NCBI GenBank assembly: GCA_019914995.1
Contig: CM034127.1
Location: 806,001-870,000, forward strand
Direction of reading: 5' to 3'
DNA: 64,000 bases
Origin: Acanthochlamys bracteata
Lineage: Eukaryota > Streptophyta > Magnoliopsida > Pandanales > Velloziaceae
The translations under genes and the position numbers were made by a program. A model generated the notes under the pieces. The model searched no databases and was not told the DNA's origin. It saw nothing but the letters and a program-made list of their open reading frames with translations. Numbering within the stretch: the first letter of the stretch is position 1; every line of letters begins with the position of its first letter. Positions 19,330 to 42,751 of this stretch are shown piece after piece.

Positions 19330-22130
19330 AGAAACTAACACAAGAAGAGAAAGAACATGCAAGAAGAAGATGTTGCTCTGTTTTTTGAGTGTTTTAATTT
19401 GTAGTGAAGCAGAGTGGTATAAATTAAAGAGGTGAAGGAGAAGGAAGGGTTTGTTTTAATATTTTTTGTGCTAATAAGTTTCTAAATTTTTTTTAAAGTT
19501 TTATTTTTTGACGTTTCTTTAATTTCTTTGGAAGATGATCTGTCTTATAGGTGGCAAAATTGTTCCCTACGTATGAAAAAACACATCCAAAATTTTTGAA
19601 AAGAAAAAAAAAATTAACGATATATAATTAAGATTATGAATGTTGTTGCTTAACGATATATTATTAGTTTTTTTCCCGTAAAAGAACGTTTATTTATTTT
19701 TTTTATAAAAAAGTTTCGAGAGTCAGAAGAAGAAACCAAGAAGGATTGGTTGGATTTTTCAATCTTTCGGGTGAAGTCACAATCTTGGTTACGTATGAAG
19801 AAAGGCACTTGAACACAAAGCTACGCCTTGTTTACGGACTCATTAAACTTATTTCTTTTTAATTTATTTTTAATAGAAAATAAAATTATTTTTTTTTCAA
19901 AATTTATTTTTTAATACAAAAAAATATAAAATTTTATTTTTAGTAAATATTTTTAATTTTATTTTTAACTTATTTTTAAAAATAAATTTATTTCAAAATA
20001 ATATGTATATACAAAATAGATTTGATCTTTTTATTATTTATTTTTTTCTTCAAATTTCACTCTTATTTCTTCAAATTTCTAGAGATTTTTGCTTAAGAAC
20101 ATGTTTCATTAGTAAAAAATAAATTTTGCAAAACTAAATTTAATAGAACTAAATTTAAAATCGATGAAAAACAATATTCGATAAAACTGAAACAAGCATT
20201 AAATATTGTAGCTATTATTAACAGAAACGAGGCTAATGATAAGCTAAAATTTAAATGAATAATTCATAATTTTGTGAAAAAAATCAAACTATTTTATTTA
20301 ATTGGATGCAAACTGTTTACCTACTAGGCGTAAGAAGAAAGGAAGAACTTTCAAGGACCACCCCTGCAATTTAAAAAAAATAAAAATAGAAGTCTCGACG
20401 AAATTTTGGCGGCTATATTATTAATTTGTTCTAAACTATAATAACTTTTAGTTGTTTTATTTTTTATAGAGTTCAATAAAACTTCCATGTTGAGAATTTT
20501 CAGAGCAGGTGGGTTCAATAAAACTTTATATTAAATTACGAGAAATGATAATAACATATTAATTTATGGTCGTTATTATACCATATACTCAAATCAATTA
20601 TTTTAGTTTTATTATTAAAAACATATGTAATGAAGTCTTGAACATATACATACATACACTAATTAAACTATATTGGCAAAAAAAATTGTTAAGACAAAAA
20701 TTTAGTCAAACTATTTCACATATAGTTAGGAGTTCAATTGTTAGAAATCCTAAGGATTGTTTTGACATTATATTCTACACAATTTTTTTTATTAATTTTT
20801 TATTTTTAATAAATTTATTATAATAGTATATAAAATTTATTTTAAAAATATAAAAATTTTACGTAAAATAATAAAGTTTATTTATAAAAATTGAATAAAA
20901 AATATTTTAAAAATTTTTATTTCATAATATTTCTAAACGGTCTCTAAGAGTTTGAGTTAGTTAGAATTTTTATAAGAGTTGAACAAACTAGAATTATTTA
21001 TTAGAGTGTAATAAGATAAAGTTTTCTAACGTTAACAAAAATATATTCTAATATAATAGCGATCCGATATTTATATATAAAACCGTGATATGTTCCACAC
21101 GCTCAATCAATCAAGAATATAATTTTTCATATTCTTCTATTTTATTTTATTATGTTAAAGTCGACTAATTTGTTTACCGGAGGCAATTCTTGGCATCAGT
21201 AAATATAAGACTTGTAAGGAAACGTTCAAAATTATGTAAAATAAGATTTTTAAATATATATACTTTTGAAATTTTGAAAAAATATTTGAAAATTTTTAAT
21301 TACTATAAATAATTATTAAAATGGTGAAAGAAATAAACTGAAACGGACTACTGAGTTTTTACGTTTGCCCAAATAAAAGAACATCCAATGAGTGAGATAT
21401 TGATAAATAGTATATTTCATACTTTCCCTGCAAAATTTCCCATATCTTAGTTTGTCACTTACTAATGAATCCTTTGAAAATCTAAAACTTAAAACATGTT
21501 CTACACTTCATTGCTTCCTTTTTAAAAAAAATTAAAATTTCAAAAAGTTTTTATCAAGAGTATGTTCTTTTTATTTTGACCACTCAATCTTTTTGTTACT
21601 AAAATGTTATACTAAAGATACGTTTTGAAAATACTTATTAAATAAAAAAATTTTAAAATAAAAAATATTTTTATTTTTTCAAAAATAAATTTTATTTTTT
21701 ATTTCTAAAAAATAATAAAAATATATAATAAAAAATTTTATTATATAATTTTTTATAAAATTTTTAAATAAAACTTTTAAATATTATAAATATATATTAA
21801 AAATAAAAATAAAAAATAAAGATTATCTTTTTTGATAAGCTCAACCAAACGCAACCTAACTCACTCGCGATCCAGCTGCATAAAATAACATAAAATAAAA
21901 AAAATCACTATTTATTTAACTCACTTAATAATTCACTTGTATTCTAAAAAGACACACCCCCAATCGATGTTAAAATTCCGAAGAATCACGAAAGCCTGCA
22001 GTTGTGGGCCCCACCTTTCAAATGGGCCTCCACTATCAAATCAGCTAATATAAATTTAGTGGCCTGATTTTGCAATATTATTTCTCTGCAACGGTAATAT
22101 AGCCGTTGAAGTTTTTTCATTCATTCGCTT
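19330..22130. other. Intergenic AT-rich region between XTH and the 22.5 kb gene
   Basis: The two flanking genes diverge, so both promoters lie here. The XTH leader is probably within 19330-19420. The rest is A/T-rich and contains MITE-like stretches at about 19830-20010, 20800-20945 and 21616-21855. An 85-codon frame at 20566-20823 has only A/T-driven composition and is not credible as a gene. Confidence 0.55.
21616..21855. repeat. AT-rich MITE-like element ending at ccaaacgc
   Basis: Starts near atacgttttgaaaatac and ends at ctcaaccaaacgcaacc. Its internal blocks (taaaataaaaaatattttta, tatataataaaaaatttt, aaatatatattaaaaat) match those at 6761-6985 closely in order and spacing. It is one of the clearer copies of the dispersed family. 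Confidence 0.4.
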
Positions 22131-22140: not shown

Positions 22141-22504
22141 TCTTCCTCCTTCATTTCTTCTCTCTACTCTGTCAACAATCGAATCGATTACGATCAGCAA
22201 GATCTCTCCTTCTTGAGGAGATTCTCCATTTTTACGATCGAATCGGTCTCAGTGAGTTTCTTTCCTTTGCGTTCAATTGAAATTTGGAGGTGAATTTCTT
22301 CTGTTGAAATCTTAGAGGATTTCAATTTTTGCATTGTTCAGGATTTCTGTCGATTGATTTCTGTTTTGTTGTCTTGTTAGATAAACCAGAAACTTGTTTC
22401 CAAAAACATTAGAATTCGTTTGTTGTTTTTGTTTACCGTAGATTTTCTTCAGTAATCAATGGCGAATACTTTATTTCAGGCTTCAGGAATTTAAAACAAA
22501 TTCA

Positions 22505-23718
22505 ATGGAGACTCCATCATCAGCAGTGAGACCTCTCCCCAGTTCCCAATCCTCCGCAACTCGTAAGAAACAAAAATTGTTTTTTCTTTGATTTCTCGTG
22601 TTTAAGATTTGTTTTCAATCTACAATTCTTTCTCTGCTTCAGTGAAGAGCGTGAAGAAGCAAGGTGATTCCGTTTCCAAATCAAGAACCACATCTGACCG
22701 GCCCGTATTACTCGACATAACCAATGATTCACCGATCGTCGGCCTCGCGAAAGACAAGACTCCTGCGGCATCTGTGGTGAAGATTCGACCTAATCCAGGC
22801 CGAACGCCAGGTTCCGGCGAAGCACTGCTTAGAAGCCAGGTCAAGACTCTGCTGCAAAGAGTTGAAGAAGAAGAAGGGGAGGCAGTGATTGCCGGGAGGA
22901 TTGCTTTCGGAGTCAATGGTCAAGGCCGCTTGCCGCCTCTTGGGTTTATTAATTCCCCGTCGCAGCTTCTTGCGCCGACTCCGGCTAACACGCCGCAGGT
23001 GCCTAATCTATCTGGACTCGAAGAAGGTAGCATTCCCATGGCTGTAGTAGTGGAATCTTGCAGGGTTCCTGAGCAGCAAGACAATATTTTCCCTCAGGTT
23101 ATTTCGTCGAACGCATTCTAAAACTTGAATACTTCTTTTGGTCTGAATTTACTGATCCTTAATTCAACTTTATCTATTCAATTTGTTATTGTACAGGTTG
23201 TAAGTTCTGTGAAACAACAAGATCAGCAACTCAACACTACTCCAGAAGAGTGCCTGATCAACAGAATGCTGTTCTTCGACTCCCCGGGGAAATCCGAAGC
23301 CTCATCGACGTCTTCCTGTGCACCCTATTCTTCATTGACTTACCAAACAAGCGGCGACAAGTTCTCAGAAGACGATAATTCATCGGCGTGGTCCATTCAA
23401 GTCAATGCCTCAAGCACTCATGAATTTGATGATAAAGACTTCGAAGATGATCATGAGCTTGACAATGACTGTCACGAAGAGTTCGACGGCAGTGATGATG
23501 ATGGCTGTGTGGATGATTTATGTGAAGTTTTAGGGAAGATGACGGTGAAGGATCATCAGCAAGGGAGGCACACAAGGTTTCTGTACAACAGTGATGATGA
23601 AATCGAAGGTGAGGAGGAAGTCGGAGGCCAGTCACCGGGAGTTGTTCTGCTCAAGGGAGTTCCGGTGCCGAAAGGAAAGCATATAAGGTTCCCTGAGGAG
23701 GAAGAAGAAGAAGTTTGA
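22505..23718 (+). CDS. Unrecognised acidic plant protein with destruction box and SP/TP cluster
   Basis: Three coding exons: 22505-22562, 22643-23097 and 23197-23718, giving 344 residues; an additional intron lies in the 5' UTR. I do not recognise the family. What can be seen: RPVLLDITN at 39-47 fits the APC/C destruction-box consensus RxxLxxIxN. Proline-directed phosphorylation sites occur at S49, T59, T74, S124, T132, T136, T186, S200 (SPGK, full CDK consensus) and S317. A helical stretch at 79-97 (SGEALLRSQVKTLLQRVEE) may be a short coiled coil. The C-terminal half is very acidic (245-285). Near the end the two related motifs GRHTRF (294-299) and GKHIRF (331-336) occur, the second fitting the PP1-docking RVxF consensus. 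No signal peptide or membrane segment. With the MSA-like promoter this suggests a mitotic regulatory protein, but that is inference. Reading through intron 2 would give a 178-residue form ending VISSNAF. Confidence 0.8.
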
Positions 23719-24017: not shown

Positions 24018-24200
24018 ACAAGTAATTGGTGTTCATTAGTTTTAGCATAAGAACTAGTGAACTAGTTCATTGGTTCCAGCACAAGTAATTGGTGTTCATT
24101 AGTTTTAGCATAAGAATTCATGAATTTGTTTTAGCACAAGTAATTGGTGTTCATTAGTTTTAGCATAAGAGTTCATGAACTAGTTCATTGGTTTTAGGCT
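24018..24200. repeat. Direct tandem repeat, three copies of a 35-bp core
   Basis: The 35-bp core beginning acaagtaattggtgttcatt and ending agcataaga occurs at 24018, 24081 and 24136, so the spacing is 63 and then 55 bp. Spacers share aactagttcattggtt. Degenerate continuations (gcataagaattcatgaa) run to about 24320. The three cores are near-identical, which suggests recent amplification. Confidence 0.85.
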
Positions 24201-24409
24201 TTTAGTAATCATGAGCTTGTTAGTTCAATTGTTATAGCTTGAGAACTCATGACTTTAGTTTAGGCATAAGAATTCATGAATTATTAGTTTATTAGCATAA
24301 GAATTCATAAGCTGTTGTTGATTGGCACAAGATTCTGGCCTTTGAATTATGGCCACTGAGTTGTACGTAGAAGATGCCAGCGTATGATTAGGGTAGTTTG
24401 GGATTGCGT

Positions 24410-32200: not shown

Positions 32201-35200
32201 AGATTTGAAACTTTTCAATACAAAATTGCATATCCATTGTGTGTCGCCTAGCAGACTCTAATTGGACTTTATGTACTTCAACAAAATGTAAAGAACATGA
32301 GGGGCACTGCATGACTCAAAAGCTTCAGATGCAAGCCCAACTGATCAACATAAGGCATCATTCAACCTTGCATTCACCACTTTAATATAAGGATCTCCTC
32401 GCAAAGTTCCTGGTATGACTATCAAAATGGATGGACTCAATTATTTAAGATATATTGGTGGAACTTACTGTAACCGCATAGAGTACAAGCCACTTTATGA
32501 ATCAATAAAACCAAACACTTGAGTTCTAACAAGAATGCAGTGACATTTACCTCTGGAGATTCCAGATTTGAGTTTAGCTTTACTAGAAGGTCCTTTGTAT
32601 CCTGGCTTTTCAGCATATTGGCAAGCTTGGGCGTAAGCAAAGCTTTTAGTGCAGTAGCTGCTGAATGATTATACGGTGTTGATACCCCATCTTCACAAAG
32701 CCCACAAAGTCTTGAAAGAGCGATAGTAGCACGTGCAGCATGTTGGTTCTTAGCAATCTGTACACTAGCACCCACACCGTGGGTCTCAGTTTCATCACTC
32801 TCTTCTGCAGTTGAATCATACTGAAGCAAAAGCGGCAAGAGGTACCTGAAACAGTGAGAACAAGTTAAGGGCAATGGTCAGAGTGCTCTAGGAAAAACTA
32901 GGAGGAATAAGGCTTCTAACTCCACTAACAACACTGGAATAAAATCAAAGTGAGAATTAGGGTGCTTGTTCAAGATACCATAACAACCCAGCCTTAAGTA
33001 AAGCATCCTGCAATTCAGATGACACACAAGCATTTGCTGCAGTTTTTATGGCGGCATCAACTGCAGATGGTGTGAGTTCTAGCTCAGTACAGTGCACAAT
33101 ATCCTCTACCAGACCACCAAACTCGAGTATCTCAGATCTTGCGCTCTCAAATTGACTCAAGACAGCAAACGTTCGCATTATGTTTGTAACTATGATAGCT
33201 GGTGGTTCACTAGCAGGAGTCATAGGCTGAACAACTCCCATGCAACGAGAAAGAAGGTTTGCCAGAAGTGGTATACCACCATCTCGTATAAGCTCCTCAC
33301 CGTTCAATGAAGATGAGGCACATCTAAAAGACACAAGAAAAAAGTGGTGATTACTTGCAGCACAAAAATGGAAGAACTATTAGAGGATTTAGAGCTAGCT
33401 AGTTACGTCAGCCAAATCAACTCTGAAGCAGCAACGAGAAGAGATACTCTATCAGAAGAAAGAAAATTGTTATCATCCTTGTCAACAGTAACTGCATTGA
33501 GAAGCATTGGGTAACCAGCATATTTAAATGGTTCCAACACGTCGTCATAACGTCTATACAAAATGCACTGTCCCTTCAATAAAAGCAGCAACCTCCAGAC
33601 CTGAGGACCTTGTAGCCCTTGCATGCTTGCCTGTAGTATAACTGAGTATTATGATATCTATAAAATGCTAAAGCAAATTAAAAGTAGTAGCAAATTTACA
33701 ACCAAATCGTGAGAAACATGACGAATATGATCCTCCTAGCAGCATGACTTGTACAACCACAACCCCACCAAAGATGCACATAGTTCAACATTTCACTCAA
33801 AGCCCAGAAGACTCAAGCTCATCATCCAAAGATGATACTAATTTCTTGCTAGAAATACAGTAACAGATCTGAAAAAGACATTTACACCTAAAAACACCAA
33901 GACTACCTGCAAACGCTCGTACGCTTTCTGTACTGCAACAAATTTCTCCCTTCCTTCAGGATTCTTATCAGGATGGTATTTTATTGCCAATTTCCTATAC
34001 TGCCTTTTAAGTTTTTCCTCATCTACGTTAAGAGCTTGCATTGGTGCACTATGACAATCACCATTTGAATCAATAGATTTTCCATTTCCAGAATTATCAC
34101 CAATCACAATATCATCTAGGGATATCTCCAAAATCTTGCAAGCTTCTTCTTCAGAAAGATCCATCGGTTTCCGTGTTAACTCTTCACGCCACATTGCTAA
34201 CAAAGACTGCAGAAATTCAACATGCTCAACGATAGGCCAATTTGGAAACCTTATTTCATCACATAAGTTGCGAAGATAGTAACGATGACACCACATCTCA
34301 TCTTTCAGCTCGGGATATGTTACAGGAGGCATTGGGGCATAATCATATAATGAGTGGCAATGCTGTGATAACTTCTGTGGAAAATCACCAAGATGCTGCA
34401 AAACCTAAAGAAAACAGGGTATGAAAACAGGTATAGGTTTCCAGGGTGAAAATGTAGAAAAAACTGCGTCATGCCAATTCATTTTACTTACCTGATGAAT
34501 AAGCTGTTCAGCACGCATCTTATGTGTCCAAATGATCTCAGGAGTATCTGAATCAGAAACCATGGCTGCAGCAAATGCAGCAGGCCCACTTCGTTCCAGC
34601 ACATACAACAACGATTCTGGAAGAAGTCCTCCAAGGACACTACGCTTTGCCAAGGGCAATGAGGAGGAAACGGCTGCTTCCTCACCACCATGAAAAGCTT
34701 GGTGGACATGAGTTACAGAGAACAAATTTGCAATAGAAAGAAGGTTGGAACCAGGATATGCCAGAGCAAAGTAGAAAGCACCAGTGCTGTAGAGCCGTAT
34801 CATGGCCTTGGGATTCCTAGTTACAATAGCCTTCAGCAAAGCTGCGGCGCTCTCAACAATGCTTGGTTCACCAGTCAGCATAGCCTAAAATAATCAAAAG
34901 AAATAAACAAAGTACACAGCACAAAAATCCACAAGAACAGGTGTCAGAGAGAACCATACAACCTGCCTATATCCATAATGATGAGGAACTACCAATTTCC
35001 TCAAAGTAAAATAAAGTTCCTATCTTTCCGCAAAGACAAGACATGTGAGCATGAGTTTAACAGACAAATAAGGCCCTGTGAGCTATAGGAATAGCATGCT
35101 CTAATAACTCGTTTAGAGGTGCACGGCTCTTAAGCAAACTACATGAGTTATGGAAACCTGATTAGTTCTACAGGTTGAAATTTGCCTTAACTATTTCATA

Positions 35201-38200
35201 TAGCCAAAAGCATCAATTCTTCAAAAAGTGCTCATAAGATAATGTTGATCTTATCATCAATCCGAAGTATAATTGAGGAAGTATAACAAAAAGATTTTAT
35301 GCCACAATAAGTTGCATCTATTGAAAGATCAACCCATCAACTAAAGAGGGAACACTCACGATAAAAGAATTTCTAACAAAGTGTTCTGATCATCATTTCA
35401 AAGTTGTCCCTCTAAACACTAGGGACTTCACATACTATTAGAATTAACCATATTAAAACTCGATAGATTACCTGAGCAATATGCGGAAGGCATCGAGGAC
35501 TTGACAAAATCCTTTTCACTCTCGGTGTAGGAGTCACGATCTCTCCAGCATCATCAAGATCAGAATGAGCAGAAACCATGTGATGTAATATAGACAATGC
35601 AGCCTCACCAACCTGGAATTTGAGATATTAACAATGACATGATATACAAGAAAGAAAGACTTCACATTCATTTACGTTCAGTGTCACAGCCTCAAAATAT
35701 CAATGATCAAACAAGTTGCAAAGCACAGTTACACTTCAATCTTATTATATTGCAAAAAGCAATAGAGGGAATCTAATAGAGGCAAAAGTTACGTAAGATT
35801 TATAACTACATGTAAAACTATCTTAAAGCATGTCCCAAAATGCAAACAGGACATGAAAAAGCAAGAGCATAGACCTAATAGAAAGAGCACTAGTAGTCCT
35901 TATGACTCTTCCCGACATGGTGAAAGAGTACGATTGGTGTGTATAAGTGATGGTTCATTCAATCATGCTTATGATTCATGGTGGCTACACTCATGACAAA
36001 CAGAAATCTAGCATTATAAAAGGAAATGCAAAAGCAAAACTACGTCAATAAGATGAATATTCTCTCATGTTCAGAGATCCTTAAAAAATCCCAACATCAT
36101 CAGATATCTTCATAAGTAACACTACCTGCACAGGTGTGAGAACAGGAACACGCTGTGCCAAAGCCCATCGGAGCTCACGTATATCACGCAGTCGCTTCCA
36201 ATCGAGCATACCAGATGCCCAGCATTTTGATGTCCAATCTATGTTCTTCTTTGACCAGAATCTTCTAATAGCGTCTTTCTCAACAGGTCCAAGCTGTGTG
36301 CCTTCCTTGTCAATAACCATCCATTCCTTAAGAGGCTCCATAAATGCAGTTGCCGCAATTAAATTAGATTGTAGTGGTATAGACGTCCTCTCACATGCCT
36401 CATGAGCTACAGTTATAAGATCAACGGCCAAAACACATCCTCCAACCAAGACACAAGCTTCCACATTCGATAGTTCCTTCATTAAGACCTAAATTGTCCA
36501 GAATGAATGAGTTCATCTAATATATATTGTAGTATTGCTCAAGAAATTAGAAAAGAATACTTGAGTTTTCAGGTGTACTTACTGCAGATAATATGGTTAA
36601 CAGGAAATAATAATCTAGAACAAACAGATGACCAGGAGCTATGCAGCTTCAGCATTTACAACAAGCATTGCTAAATGATGAGTGTAAAGTTGAATCATCA
36701 TCCAGATCTCTTACATAACTCAAGGTGAGTAAGAAGATAAATTGTACCAATTTCCATTTTGTTCTTTAGGAGAAAAAATAAATGCTAAAAACCTCTATTC
36801 AGCTAACCTCTCATTTTTCTATGGCAAGAGTAGTATTAGAATCAACAATATGCTGATCTTAATGACTGTTTCAGGAAATAGAATGCATATGAAACATTAA
36901 CCTAAGCATACCTAACATTCCATTGCTACTGTTACTGATGATGCAAAAATAAACTGCAGGCATCTAAATGCAGAAACATTTAGCCAATAAATGCATTCTC
37001 TAAAAGTACTTTCTAGGTTTATTATCACCAGAAACCTGATTGTCAGTTACATACAAAAGATTCTTCAAGCAATTTGGGAAGAGCATCATTCTTTAGAAGA
37101 CAAATTTTACTGTGGTAGCTAAGAGTTCAAATTGTTTATATAAGCATTTGATTTTATAAGCATACCTTCAAAAGGAGTAGTAGACGATGCCTCAAAGCTC
37201 GATCATCAGTTCTATCTAATAGAACTGTAATATGGGCAGTACCATCAAAAGGGCCTATTGTTTTATAGTGCTGTTCGTACACAATAGTCATTGCCCTGGC
37301 ACACAGTTCTCTGACTGATGACCCTCCCCCACCACCAAATCCATCCAGCCGGCCCATATCACACCAATCATCAGAAGATCCTAACTCATCAGGAACAGCA
37401 CCGGCCACAGTAAGGCCAATATCTGCATCACACAAGAAACGGTGATATAACGCTCTAAAGAATGCAACTGGATCACGTAGAGGAAAATCCTGTGCCCGAA
37501 AGTTGCCCCCACTATCAAGCAACAAGCGGAGATAATATTGGCCAACGCAAACTTCTTTTGACAAGCTTGGGTAGCTAACTAGAAATTCGGCATAGTTCCA
37601 TGACAACTGTGGTGGATTGTCTTCCCCAGTCTCAACCTCATTTAATGCACCACCTGCAACAATATCTTCTGTCCTCTCTTTTTCAACATCTAAGTTATGA
37701 ACTTCTGCTTGAAGGGCTTCTCGCAGCTCCTGTCTGGTGCGTTCATTCCATATTAGGTCAGCTCGGTTGTGATCTAACCCAAATGCCCTCCAGAACTCGT
37801 ACCAGTTACATAATAATCTACCAGATCCTACAGGCGTATTCTCCACAACAACCTGAGCAGGTGCCGGAATATCAGAACTTAAAGGCCCAACCACATTCAC
37901 ATTAGAGCCAGCTGAATCTAGTAACATTGAGCCTACTACATGAGAGGTACTAGCTTGAGAAAAACCGTCAGTAGAAACGGGCACTGAACCAACATTCTGC
38001 TGCACTGCAGGATAAGGCGATTCATTCAAGAAGTTGCCTCCAAGATGACCATGAACAGGTGCCATATATTCAGAATCCTGGGTAGGTTTTTTACTATTTT
38101 CAGCAACTACAGTTGCAACTGTTGTTATCTGTCTTACTGCATCTCCAACATCTGCATTACTAACTAGAGGATCTTCTTGTTCCTGTGAAAGCACAAGACG

Positions 38201-41200
38201 GCCCCTTTTCTGCTGAAGTACTTGTCTCTGCCTTCTATTCAAAGGTGCTTCTTCACTATAATGGCCTTGTGAGTCCTCACCATCTAAGCGGGTATGCAAA
38301 TACGCTACAAGCCCAGGAGGAAGAACCCTTGAAAGCAAATCAAGAGCAGGCTGATAAGAATCTGCCCAAAGCGCAACAAGCTGCTGACTAACATCCCGAC
38401 GCTCACCAGCAGGAAGGAAAAAGGCATGCAGCAAATGCCGCAATAGAGCACCATCTCTTAAAGCAGCATCACGCATTGAATCTGCAGCAATTGCATCCTC
38501 CTCCGCAATAGTACGCATTATGACAGCTACCGTCTCTCTCACACTTACTGCAGGATGTCCGAATAGCGCAAATAAACGTCGTTTTAGCCCAGCAACTTGC
38601 CTTAGTAATTCAACAAAAGTAGTGTGTTGGGTTGTCTCGCCATGGGGATTGCAAAGCATAGCTTCAAGAACCTCCACAACAGACATTGACAACAAAGGTG
38701 ACACTGATGCAGGCCTCAACCTGTTCACAAGAATGGTAGTGTAACTCTGATTAGCAAAAAGCACAGACTTAGCATGCATATAAGTCGCATGTTGCTCTCC
38801 TTTTGAATCCATCAGAATATTAGTATTGCGAGGACCCCCACCAATAAGCATAGCAACAAGTTCAGCAGCCTCTGCTGCTATACCTTCAGATCCATTTCTC
38901 AAAAGGCCCATTATTCTCCCAACAGCAGCAGGAAATGACATTACATGGGAGGCAGCGTTTCTTGATGCTAATAGTCTGCGTAAACATGCAACGAATCCTG
39001 TCACTGTTGCAGCTGCTTTTGGTGATGGTGGTGGAGGCGGAGGAGCCTCTGGTGGCAAGTTCGGAGTAGCTGGAAGCATTGTGATCAAAGCCATTAAAAC
39101 TACTTCAGGCACTTCTATATTAGGAGGTACCCCTGTATAAGGCACACAGGCATTGAATTCCCTTATTCTACGCCATAGCTTTGCTCTGGAACCAGGAACT
39201 GATCCACCTTCAGCTACAGCATCTTTTGCAGTTGCAGCTAGGTGCTTTAGAAACATAGATGCAGTGTCGACATCAATAAGAGGGCGGTGTTGGCCAAGAT
39301 GATACTGTTGCAAGTGAAAATAGGCACTTCCACATGGAGGATCTATCAAATGACCAGGCATAGTCAACCTCGGTAATACTGGAACTGGACTCTGTCCCTG
39401 AATAGAATACCATTGAGAAAATAGTGTGATTGGTGTCCGTACCATATCATAAAAGCCAAAGCACATATACAAAAGAATACTGTGGTCAGTGCCAGTACAA
39501 GTATAGGGGATAAAGTACCTACTTCTATTTGCAAAACATCGCGAACAGCAGCCAGCAAACTATCCCGTGATGTACTTGCATAGACCTATCAATATAATTG
39601 TCAATAATGTCAAGAAGGGGAAATTTCGCAAAACACAGATATGTCAGATGGCAGGTGCTTTACGTGAATAGGACAGCCATCATTGAATTCAAAGGCAAAC
39701 ATCTGCGGCTCTTCCAAAAATCGAACAAGAGCAGATACTGCAGATAGAGGTCTAACAATAACAGCCTGCAGAACCACATTAAGAGATAACTAAGTAAATG
39801 ACATAAACTTCAGTTCAATGGAAGTACAGCATGCTAATAGAGTGAGTCAAAATCAAATGTGATTAAGATCTGGCATTTCAAAGAGTCTTTGCGCCTGGTG
39901 AGACTACAAACAAGGAAAGAATGCAGACTTGGAGGAGATATACACTAGTTCAAGTGGTTAAGCATATAGGACGGTTCATCCTACAAAACTATATTCCAAG
40001 TAGCACATTGGAACTCAGCCACGTCATACAATTTTGTAAGTTATGAGGCTAAAATTCTAAAACTTTTTATATACTTCTAGCAAACAATGAAATAACCGTA
40101 AGTACAAAGAGAGCATTGCAACCTCGTAGTTCTCTGGCCGCCTTTCAACAAGTGACACCTTTGTAAGAATTAATTGACGAGATACAGCATTACCCTTTTC
40201 CCCAAGCCCACCTTTTGGCCCAATCCCCAAGGTTAAGCTCTCCACATTAGCAGTTCCATGAGCAGCAGATCGCAGCCTTGCCACCAACCACCCTCCAACA
40301 GGTGTTTCCTCGGCCCCAACTGCCTCCTTCGCTGCAAATTAAGTAAACTATTGAAGAAATTAACCCCACAATTTGCACGTAACTGCAAATGAAATGCCAC
40401 AATAACAACAGGGTTTTATATAGCTATCTACATGTTTATGACTTTTTCTTCTCAAACTCTTCAAAAGCAAAGTGGTTAAGCAACAAGGTAAACAAGCAAT
40501 AACCTGAGAAGGTAAACCTGCAGGAATGTCCAATCATCGGAACTATGATTGATAATAAAAAAGTTGAGCATTTTATTGAATGAAGGGTTAATCTACGTGT
40601 ACTACAAGGTAATCATTTCCAGTCTTCTAAGCACCCTACAACTGCATTAGATTTTTATGGTAGAAACCTTTGGTTGGAGATTTGATGCCCTTCATATAAT
40701 ACTAATGGAAAAAAAGCTACTTCCTCAACCAACTTTTCAGACAATAATATCTATGCATATTTTCTTAACATATAGTTATATTAACATGCGAATAATCATC
40801 GAGATACAAGTGCCGACATAGTAATTCTGTCGATTATTGAGTAAATTTAATGTTTAAGTAAACAATGTGACATATATTGTATTTCCATATTCAGCTTGTA
40901 TTTTACATGTGCACTACCATGCAAATTCACTTATCACTTCTTTCTTTTGTTAGACTGAAGCCTACCATTTTGTGCATAAAGACTGCTTCGCCGGAAGTAT
41001 ATGACATAAATTATGCAAACCTACTGAAAACAATATCGTAGCATGAATTACCACCTCAGAGTAAGCATACCTCTTCGTGTCATATATTCTGTTGTTGTCA
41101 GTGATTGAGAACTGTCAACGGATAAAAGGATGCCAACAGTTGACTTTGCAGTTTTAGTCTGGCATGAAACTCAATAATCAGGTTCATGCCCAAAAAAAAA

Positions 41201-42452
41201 AAGTAGCCATAAAAAGAAAAGAACTGAAAGTGCAAATAACTTACCAAATATGATATAATTGCACTATTTGAGGCACCAGAAGTAGCCATAAAAGCCTTAC
41301 TTTTCCTTCCATAGAGGGGACACAGAACAAAACCTCCATGATCAGAAGTCCTCATTCCATATATGTCAGCCAAGAGCAAGATTGCTGGAGCATTCATATC
41401 CCTATACTCCAAGCACCAGCGTGGATCACCAGACCCTTCAAGAAGTTCCACACCGATACTTGTAACTTTCAGTTTCTGCGCATTATGGATATATACGCTC
41501 ATAAGGATATGTCAAAAATAAGATATTCTCGCTCTATAATCACAAAACACCGAGAAAAACAGAGAATAAAGCTTTTTGTAGAAGAACATATACTCACCCA
41601 AGAATGGAAGAATGAACTAGATAGACTGCTAAATCATGCAAAGAACATAATGGAACCAGCTATATTCACTACAATCATCAATGTTTAGTTTAAACCGCAC
41701 TCTTTCCACTGAACGAAAAGGCTTTAAATTTATGAAGATGAAGATCAAGGCAACTACTAAGAACAGAGCTCCCCCTCTATGAACAAAGGCAAGACTGGGA
41801 GAAGAAACGATTTTGTTTATACTTGGGTTATAGACAAAATAAGCCAAACTACTGCACTTAGCTCATTAACAAAAACATTGAAAAGTTCACATAGCGAAAA
41901 ACGCTCCGTAACTCATCAGACACGGTCCAATAAATTCAGCTAGTAGAAGAACCAGAGAGAATATCTTACATAAGGTATCCACTCGCCAGTCCGCCGCCTA
42001 AGGTGCAAGACGTTGAACTCGCCAACAGGACTGCCGGTAAGACTCTTCTCCAACCTTAGCCGATGGAGCTCAGTAAGAATACTCGCCCTTAATCTCGACG
42101 AGAACTTGATCGCCTTGAACTTCCCCTTCCCATCAGTTCTTACGCTGATCGTGAACTCTGTCGAATCGTCACGATTAAGAACCGGCGCAGCAGAATCGAA
42201 ATCTCCAGCGGCATCGTACGAATTCGTCACGGCAAGCGTGTTCGGGTCGAGCGTGATTATTCCCGAAGTCGATATACATAGAATTCTCTTGTACTTCCCT
42301 CGCCATGAATGCTTGATCACCATGTACCGAGCAAGGTACTCAGGTTCTTCCAGCGGTTGATTCGGTTGTGAAGATGAAGGCTGGTGTTGTGGGACCGGCG
42401 GGTGGTCGGAAGAAGAATGATTGGAGCTGACGTGGCGGCTAGCGAAGTCCAT
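26201..42452 (-). CDS. GRV2: DnaJ homolog GRV2 / KATAMARI2 (RME-8 type), complete 22-exon gene
   Basis: Exons (minus): 42452-41970, 41475-41245, 41158-41071, 40331-40123, 39765-39664, 39585-39523, 39397-37166, 36488-36126, 35612-35472, 34884-34492, 34404-33907, 33630-33407, 33323-32979, 32845-32551, 32113-31652, 31563-31218, 30813-30470, 30384-29935, 29357-29233, 28202-28079, 27285-27217, 26410-26201. All join in frame to about 2598 residues, close to Arabidopsis GRV2 (about 2550). The N-terminus is PH-like ([20 protein letters not shown]). Exon 8 has a GYF_2-type domain ([14 protein letters not shown]). Exon 11 ends with the J domain, with HPD at about 1579-1581. Four IWN repeats ([32 protein letters not shown]) lie near 940, 1420, 1890 and 2220. 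GRV2 works on endosomes in vacuolar trafficking and gravitropism. The start could instead be the in-frame ATG at 42551 (33 residues longer). Confidence 0.96.
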
Positions 42453-42751
42453 GTATGAAGAAGTAGGAGGGGGGATGGAGTCGAGAAGAGAAGGAAGGCG
42501 TCGGCGTGGAAGGAAAAAGGAGGAGAAGATGAGATCTATAGTGGAGCCCACCGGCGCCGGAGCGGCGGGGGTAGACTGCTGAGCACCCAGGTTTACGGCA
42601 ACGACGCGATCGTGTTGTCGTCGCCGTTGCCGGCGATCGGTTTGATTGTTATTGTTGCTGCTGTTGCTGTTGATAATAAAATAATTGGCGATGGAGAAGG
42701 GATCGAAGTTGAGCCGATGGAGAAGGCATCAAAGATTTGGTCCCGGAAATG

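Follow-up and report, generated by a model that had tools for sequence, protein, structure and literature searches.

Does the gene at positions 22505 to 23718 of this DNA encode a plant regulator of mitosis, and if so, of what kind? The initial annotation of the window, by which we mean the whole 64-kb stretch analysed (C2:806001-870000), had read the product of this gene as a candidate undescribed cell-cycle protein, matched to no named family, that carries a destruction box (D-box) and CDK sites and docks the phosphatase PP1. Here we examine the gene model, its intact and degraded copies in the genome, the promoter and the short motifs of the protein, and weigh this reading against its alternatives.

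The gene, its homeologue and its degraded copies

Splicing of the three plus-strand exons (Table 1) yields a 344-residue frame ending at TGA, and the two introns between them (22563-22642 and 23098-23196) both have GT..AG ends. A further intron in the 5' leader is probable, being predicted from splice-like ends in both intact copies. The protein is acidic, with 59 Asp and Glu against 31 Lys and Arg. Its charge-hydropathy score is negative over residues 176-325, positive over 51-200 and about zero before that, the last 19 residues being unscored; because the score is positive over 51-200, disorder is not uniform, and the composition suggests a protein that is probably disordered in good part, but unevenly so.

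Table 1. Features of the gene in the window and its degraded copies elsewhere in the genome
Feature	Position	Strand	Remarks
27-bp promoter block TCTCTGCAACGGTAATATAGCCGTTGA	22083..22109	+	AACGG at 22090-22094; CCGTT at 22103-22107
TATA-like box TATAAA	22135..22140	+	Read from sequence; start site unmapped
Probable 5' leader intron	about 22252..22479	+	GTGAGT..TTTCAG; splice-like ends in both copies
Exon 1	22505..22562	+	Coding from ATG; homeologue has matching exon layout
Exon 2	22643..23097	+	D-box, TPGSGEALLRSQV, series of conserved SP/TP sites
D-box RPVLLDITN (aa 39-47)	22699..22725	+	Read from spliced frame
Exon 3	23197..23718	+	SPGK (aa 200-203), acidic stretch, GCVDDLCEVLGKMTVK, GRHTRF
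Exon 3 (continued)	23197..23718	+	SPGVVLLKGVP, GKHIRF, acidic tail, stop
GRHTRF (aa 294-299)	23563..23580	+	Sister of KHIRF motif
GKHIRF (aa 331-336)	23674..23691	+	Loose RVxF-type match (KHIRF = 332-336)
Degraded partial copy	C2:8246783-8247467		Insert with stops at intron 2 place
Degraded partial copies, two adjoining pieces	C14:2451707-2452169		
Degraded partial copy	C7:7547315-7547530		

The genome searched comprises 195.5 Mb in 557 contigs, and our counts of relatives are lower bounds. Besides the window gene there is at least one intact relative, at about C1:765465-766702 on the minus strand. It lies inside a collinear block that pairs window 12-64 kb with C1 777-730 kb in reversed order, and is therefore most simply viewed as a homeologue left by whole-genome or segmental duplication. 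Degraded pieces with stops are found at at least three other loci, on C2, C14 and C7; the C2 copy is not retrocopy-like, since it has an insert at the place of intron 2. Just downstream of the window gene, at 24020-24300, degenerate tandem-like runs of 'agtaattggtgttcattagttttagcataag' are visible by eye. Elsewhere in the window, at about 33800-42600 on the minus strand, lies an RME-8-type gene (DnaJ and RME-8_N Pfam matches), which we take to be GRV2-type. Blastn against 80 kb of the homeologous C1 stretch found no match to it, and the gene appears to have been either lost from that stretch or gained in the window.

All statements on conservation rest on one intact relative, the homeologue, with which the window protein has 258 of 342 aligned residues in common. 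The pairwise dN of 0.137 against a dS of 0.452 (NG86; 0.140 and 0.397 by YN00) indicates a protein constrained on average; its least constrained part, residues 141-235 (dN 0.18, dS 0.20), holds the S-P-x-K site. No invariant run is longer than PNPGRTPGSGEALLRSQV (18 residues), which is followed by DGCVDDLCEVLGKMTVK and SPSQLLAPTPANTPQVP (17 each). The expectation that the D-box and KHIRF would prove the most conserved residues was not borne out in this comparison with the homeologue: the run containing KHIRF (13 residues) comes fourth, and LLDITNDS (8 residues) is tied ninth to twelfth among the twelve runs listed.

Destruction box, SP/TP sites and an inverted AACGG pair in the promoter

The sequence RPVLLDITN, noticed earlier as a D-box match at residues 39-47, is indeed part of the spliced 344-residue frame. 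Chance rates for this and the other motifs were obtained from 20,000 composition-preserving shuffles of the window protein. A bare RxxL arises in 65% of shuffles, RxxLxx[ILVM]x[ND] in 2.3% and RxxLxx[ILV]xN in 0.76%, while the 0.02% obtained for RxxLxDIxN is a flattering figure, as this pattern was narrowed to the observed sequence. The best D-box form, RxxLxx[ILV]xN, is present in both intact copies, as RPVLLDITN and RPALLDITN. Eight of the nine residues have been kept in the homeologue despite three silent codon changes (R39, P40 and L42), and protein-level selection is therefore plausible there. SP/TP sites number ten in the window protein (3, 49, 59, 74, 124, 132, 136, 186, 200 and 317) and not nine as first counted; ten or more occur in 0.6% of shuffles, whose mean is 4.4. 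The SPGK among them, also recognized at the outset, occupies residues 200-203 and is the sole S/T-P-x-K/R site of the protein. The homeologue retains eight of the ten sites, in one case with S in place of T, and where the window protein has SPGK it has SPWK, which is still S-P-x-K. By these rates, chance readily accounts for neither the complete D-box nor the excess of SP/TP sites. A pattern search of the two intact copies for a KEN box, or for DEN, the variant of the KEN box in PANS1/RSS1 securins, found neither.

The promoter adds evidence of a different nature. The two intact copies have TCTCTGCAACGGTAATRTAGCCGTTGA in common some 400 bp before the ATG, with its AACGG cores inverted, and the block at 22083-22109 is the best conserved of the promoter, 26 of its 27 bases being equal in the homeologue. 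In the 195.5-Mb genome the 21-mer CAACGGTAATNTAGCCGTTGA is present just twice, once in each of the homeologous promoters. Two AACGG cores within 150 bp compare with 0.13 expected from the density in the window (P about 0.008). If neutral identity is 0.60-0.70, a promoter block as good as this has a P of 0.002-0.06, so that its conservation is suggestive and no proof. The TATAAA of the window gene has no equivalent at the corresponding position of the homeologue promoter.

According to the passages cited, the MSA element bound by MYB3R has AACGG as its core (PMC8964727), and the Arabidopsis G2/M gene SCL28 has AACGG cores in both orientations in its proximal promoter, with reporter activity lost once all four cores are mutated (PMC8964727, PMC10905365); in PMC8964727 the mutation turned AACGG into ATTGG. 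AACGG cores in the proximal promoter, a feature of MYB3R-type control, are found in both copies here, the transcription start being unmapped. How unusual is such a pair? Among the 56 cores of the 64-kb window, two pairs of neighbours lie within 40 bp of each other, and of these the promoter pair alone is oppositely oriented. In 80 kb around the homeologue, 67 cores give eight pairs at this spacing; five are oppositely oriented, and one of these five is the homeologous promoter pair. Oppositely oriented core pairs are not rare, and the promoter pair therefore stands out by its place and conservation. The full MSA consensus, YCYAACGGYYA, has no strict match in the window or in the 80-kb stretch that contains the homeologue. 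Taken at face value, the conserved inverted pair favours transcription in G2/M.

A genome-wide count of AACGG-N8-CCGTTG (48 places forward and 47 reverse, with 16 and 32 for a reversed control) was dropped as a marker because one repeated sequence makes up many of the places. Among the matches listed for this pattern, AACGGTAACACTACCGTTG is found, in one orientation or the other, on at least 11 contigs; if it is a dispersed repeat, it could be a source of MSA-like sites in many parts of the genome.

A repeated C-terminal motif and the case for PP1 docking

As initially annotated, KHIRF at 332-336 fits [RK]x[VI]x[FW], a looser pattern that it satisfies in both intact copies, and it is followed by an acidic tail, PEEEEEEV. 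The canonical RVxF motif is given, in the passage cited, as [KR][KR][VI]{P}[FW] (PMC5874294). KHIRF misses it through the H at its second place, and neither intact copy contains a match anywhere. The optional upstream SILK motif, [GS]IL[RK], has no match either, VLLK at 321-324 agreeing at two of four positions, and another looser match, RIAF at 105 of the window protein, is absent from the homeologue. In shuffled sequences RVxF-like matches arise in 7.2% of cases for a restricted pattern, 12.4% for [RK]x[VI]x[FW] and 20.9% when an optional spacer is allowed, and KHIRF alone is not clearly above chance; the D-box and a restricted RVxF occur jointly in 0.16% of shuffles. That KHIRF is kept in the homeologue says little, because the 13-residue invariant run around it holds only one silent change.

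KHIRF also has a sister. GRHTRF and GKHIRF have the form G[KR]HxRF in common, and we know of no motif class to which such a pair, each member followed by acidic residues, would belong. RHTRF fits no RVxF consensus, as it has T where V or I is needed, and KHIRF may therefore belong to some other class of repeated motif. Two arrangements may be envisaged: KHIRF could dock PP1, RHTRF being a version of it that has decayed or been diverted, or both could bind another partner. The latter alternative, in which residues 294-299 and 331-336 would form a binding module for a non-PP1 partner such as a basic or chromatin protein, is somewhat unlikely in our estimation; it draws on the conservation of both motifs and their acidic flanks in the homeologue and on the unsuitability of RHTRF as an RVxF, but, in this comparison of two sequences, one motif could be a genuine RVxF of which the other is a decayed copy. 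Such a module is compatible with a role in the cell cycle. Docking of PP1 through KHIRF is, on these grounds, possible but weak.

Could all of these motifs be accidents of composition? The protein, acidic and in part disordered, might reside in the nucleus or cytoplasm with a role that is constitutive or related to chromatin, its sequence, rich in Ser, Pro and Glu, having produced the matches by coincidence. The ease with which RVxF-like matches appear on shuffling (7-21%) speaks for this view, as does the absence of both the D-box and KHIRF from the three longest conserved runs, two of which do contain TP or SP sites. In addition, the pair, at 75% identity, agrees at every position in 33% of all 5-residue windows and in 13% of all 9-residue windows, whether or not they contain a motif. 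The rarity in shuffles of the full D-box and of ten or more SP/TP sites stands against coincidence, and so does the position of the inverted AACGG pair in the best-conserved block of the promoter. We regard this explanation as somewhat unlikely.

A proposed role and its known counterparts

We tentatively propose, from sequence, that the gene encodes a plant protein that is transcribed in G2/M, phosphorylated by CDK and targeted by the APC/C, and that possibly docks PP1. MYB3R factors would switch the gene on in G2/M through the conserved inverted AACGG pair. CDKs would then phosphorylate several of the SP/TP sites, chiefly the S-P-x-K at 200, and the APC/C would ubiquitinate the protein through RPxLLDITN at mitotic exit, as suggested by a D-box that exceeds chance and has been kept through silent changes. 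The second G[KR]HxRF-acidic motif of the C-terminal half may dock PP1, a weaker step, which would make the protein a short-lived mitotic phosphatase adaptor or inhibitor that works like RSS1 and need not be a member of its family. Our confidence in the link to the cell cycle is higher than in the link to PP1. Of the earlier reading, the cell-cycle part is thus strengthened by the conserved AACGG pair and the kept D-box, but the PP1 part is left weak by a non-canonical KHIRF that may be one copy of a different, repeated motif.

Searches of families and literature yielded no named group for this protein. Both intact copies returned no family from Pfam, up to E 10, or from NCBIfam, and the window protein alone gave two chance-level matches among PDB sequences (E 1.4 and 2.2). 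In prokaryote and viral collections, tblastn detected no relatives among the 538 and 101 stretches fitting two peptide patterns per scan. Peptide strings of the window protein and guessed variants of them had no full-text match in open-licence PMC papers, and RVxF, D-box, mitotic and Arabidopsis were not found together in these papers; a description may exist under some locus number that is not linkable to the sequence of the gene.

The nearest counterpart by description is rice RSS1. In the passages cited, RSS1 possesses a D-box and a KEN box (PMC8058418) and is a disordered protein with RVxF motifs (KTVIF at 103-107 and HVLF at 165-168) and an Asp-Glu-rich region, and it binds PP1 and is linked to the cell cycle in the meristem; its wheat orthologue TdRL1 is likewise disordered, has RVxF motifs, inhibits PP1 and is located at the mitotic spindle (PMC12109034). 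The window protein, compared by description only, also contains a D-box, an RVxF-like motif and an Asp/Glu-rich region; in contrast to RSS1, it has no KEN box and a single loose RVxF match at its extreme C-terminus, in addition to the looser RIAF. Its likeness to TdRL1, equally by description, extends to its probable disorder and its loose RVxF-type match, a D-box of TdRL1 not figuring in the passages concerned. The protein therefore remains undescribed within the libraries and open-licence papers searched, but its set of features is not new, since RSS1 already combines D-box, PP1 docking and acidic region. It is probably a regulator of an already known sort, RSS1-like on paper, with a function that is predicted.

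An adaptor unrelated to RSS1 and PANS1 would be a more novel solution. Made in G2/M, it would be barred from PP1 by CDK acting on S317-P, would recruit PP1 through KHIRF in anaphase and would finally be destroyed through its D-box. Here the parallel is Repo-Man (CDCA2), the animal mitotic PP1 adaptor, a comparison that concerns the presumed mode of working, with an RVxF-like site and SP sites in one protein (PMC5874294). S317-P lies 15 residues before K332; the window protein differs in lacking any Pfam or PDB family match. A resemblance of LSGLEE to the B56 motif LxxIxE of Repo-Man, as given in that part (PMC5874294), was dropped as evidence and carries no weight, because B56-like matches occur in 61% of shuffles. 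We judge such an adaptor distinctly unlikely. If it were true, the protein would be a plant counterpart of the Repo-Man-type PP1 recruiters, with an RHTRF-type second site for another partner.

A divergent plant securin, inhibiting separase and destroyed by the APC/C, is very unlikely. In the passages cited, RSS1 is put forward as the monocot equivalent of PANS1, the securin of Arabidopsis (PMC12164589, PMC8058418), which is itself an APC/C target (PMC8058418), and the layout of D-box, RVxF-like motif and Asp/Glu-rich region that the window protein has in common with RSS1 would suit this family. An approximate PANS1 sequence has an N-terminal D-box of the same LxDITN type, and a single BLASTP comparison with it aligned 23 of 82 residues around the D-box at E 4e-4. 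However, the alignment is restricted to the D-box side, the other four stretches spanning 5-11 residues at E 14-87, and the window protein is 344 residues long against 193 for the approximate PANS1 and has neither KEN nor DEN. The approximate PANS1 had no match in the 195.5-Mb genome, a result that settles nothing. Because KEN and DEN are absent and the similarity does not reach beyond the D-box side apart from chance-level fragments, we do not accept membership of the PANS1/RSS1 securins.

The GxEN box is a feature of OSD1, of which UVI4 is a relative. OSD1 is likewise a plant D-box protein and, in the passage cited, binds APC/C activators through its D-box and MR-tail (PMC8058418), but an OSD1-like inhibitor that would use the D-box as a pseudosubstrate and escape degradation is most improbable here, as neither copy has an MR tail, an I/L-R terminus or a GxEN box, their C-termini being EEEEEV and EEDDEA.

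What would a G2/M-transcribed, APC/C-targeted protein of this kind mean for plant mitosis? To our knowledge, few plant APC/C substrates and few mitotic partners of PP1 are known. Should the mitotic reading prove false, the gene would be an example of how readily short motifs suggest mitosis in a low-complexity protein. If the conserved promoter pair and the D-box do what their sequences suggest, the gene would be a ready candidate, with two intact copies in the genome.
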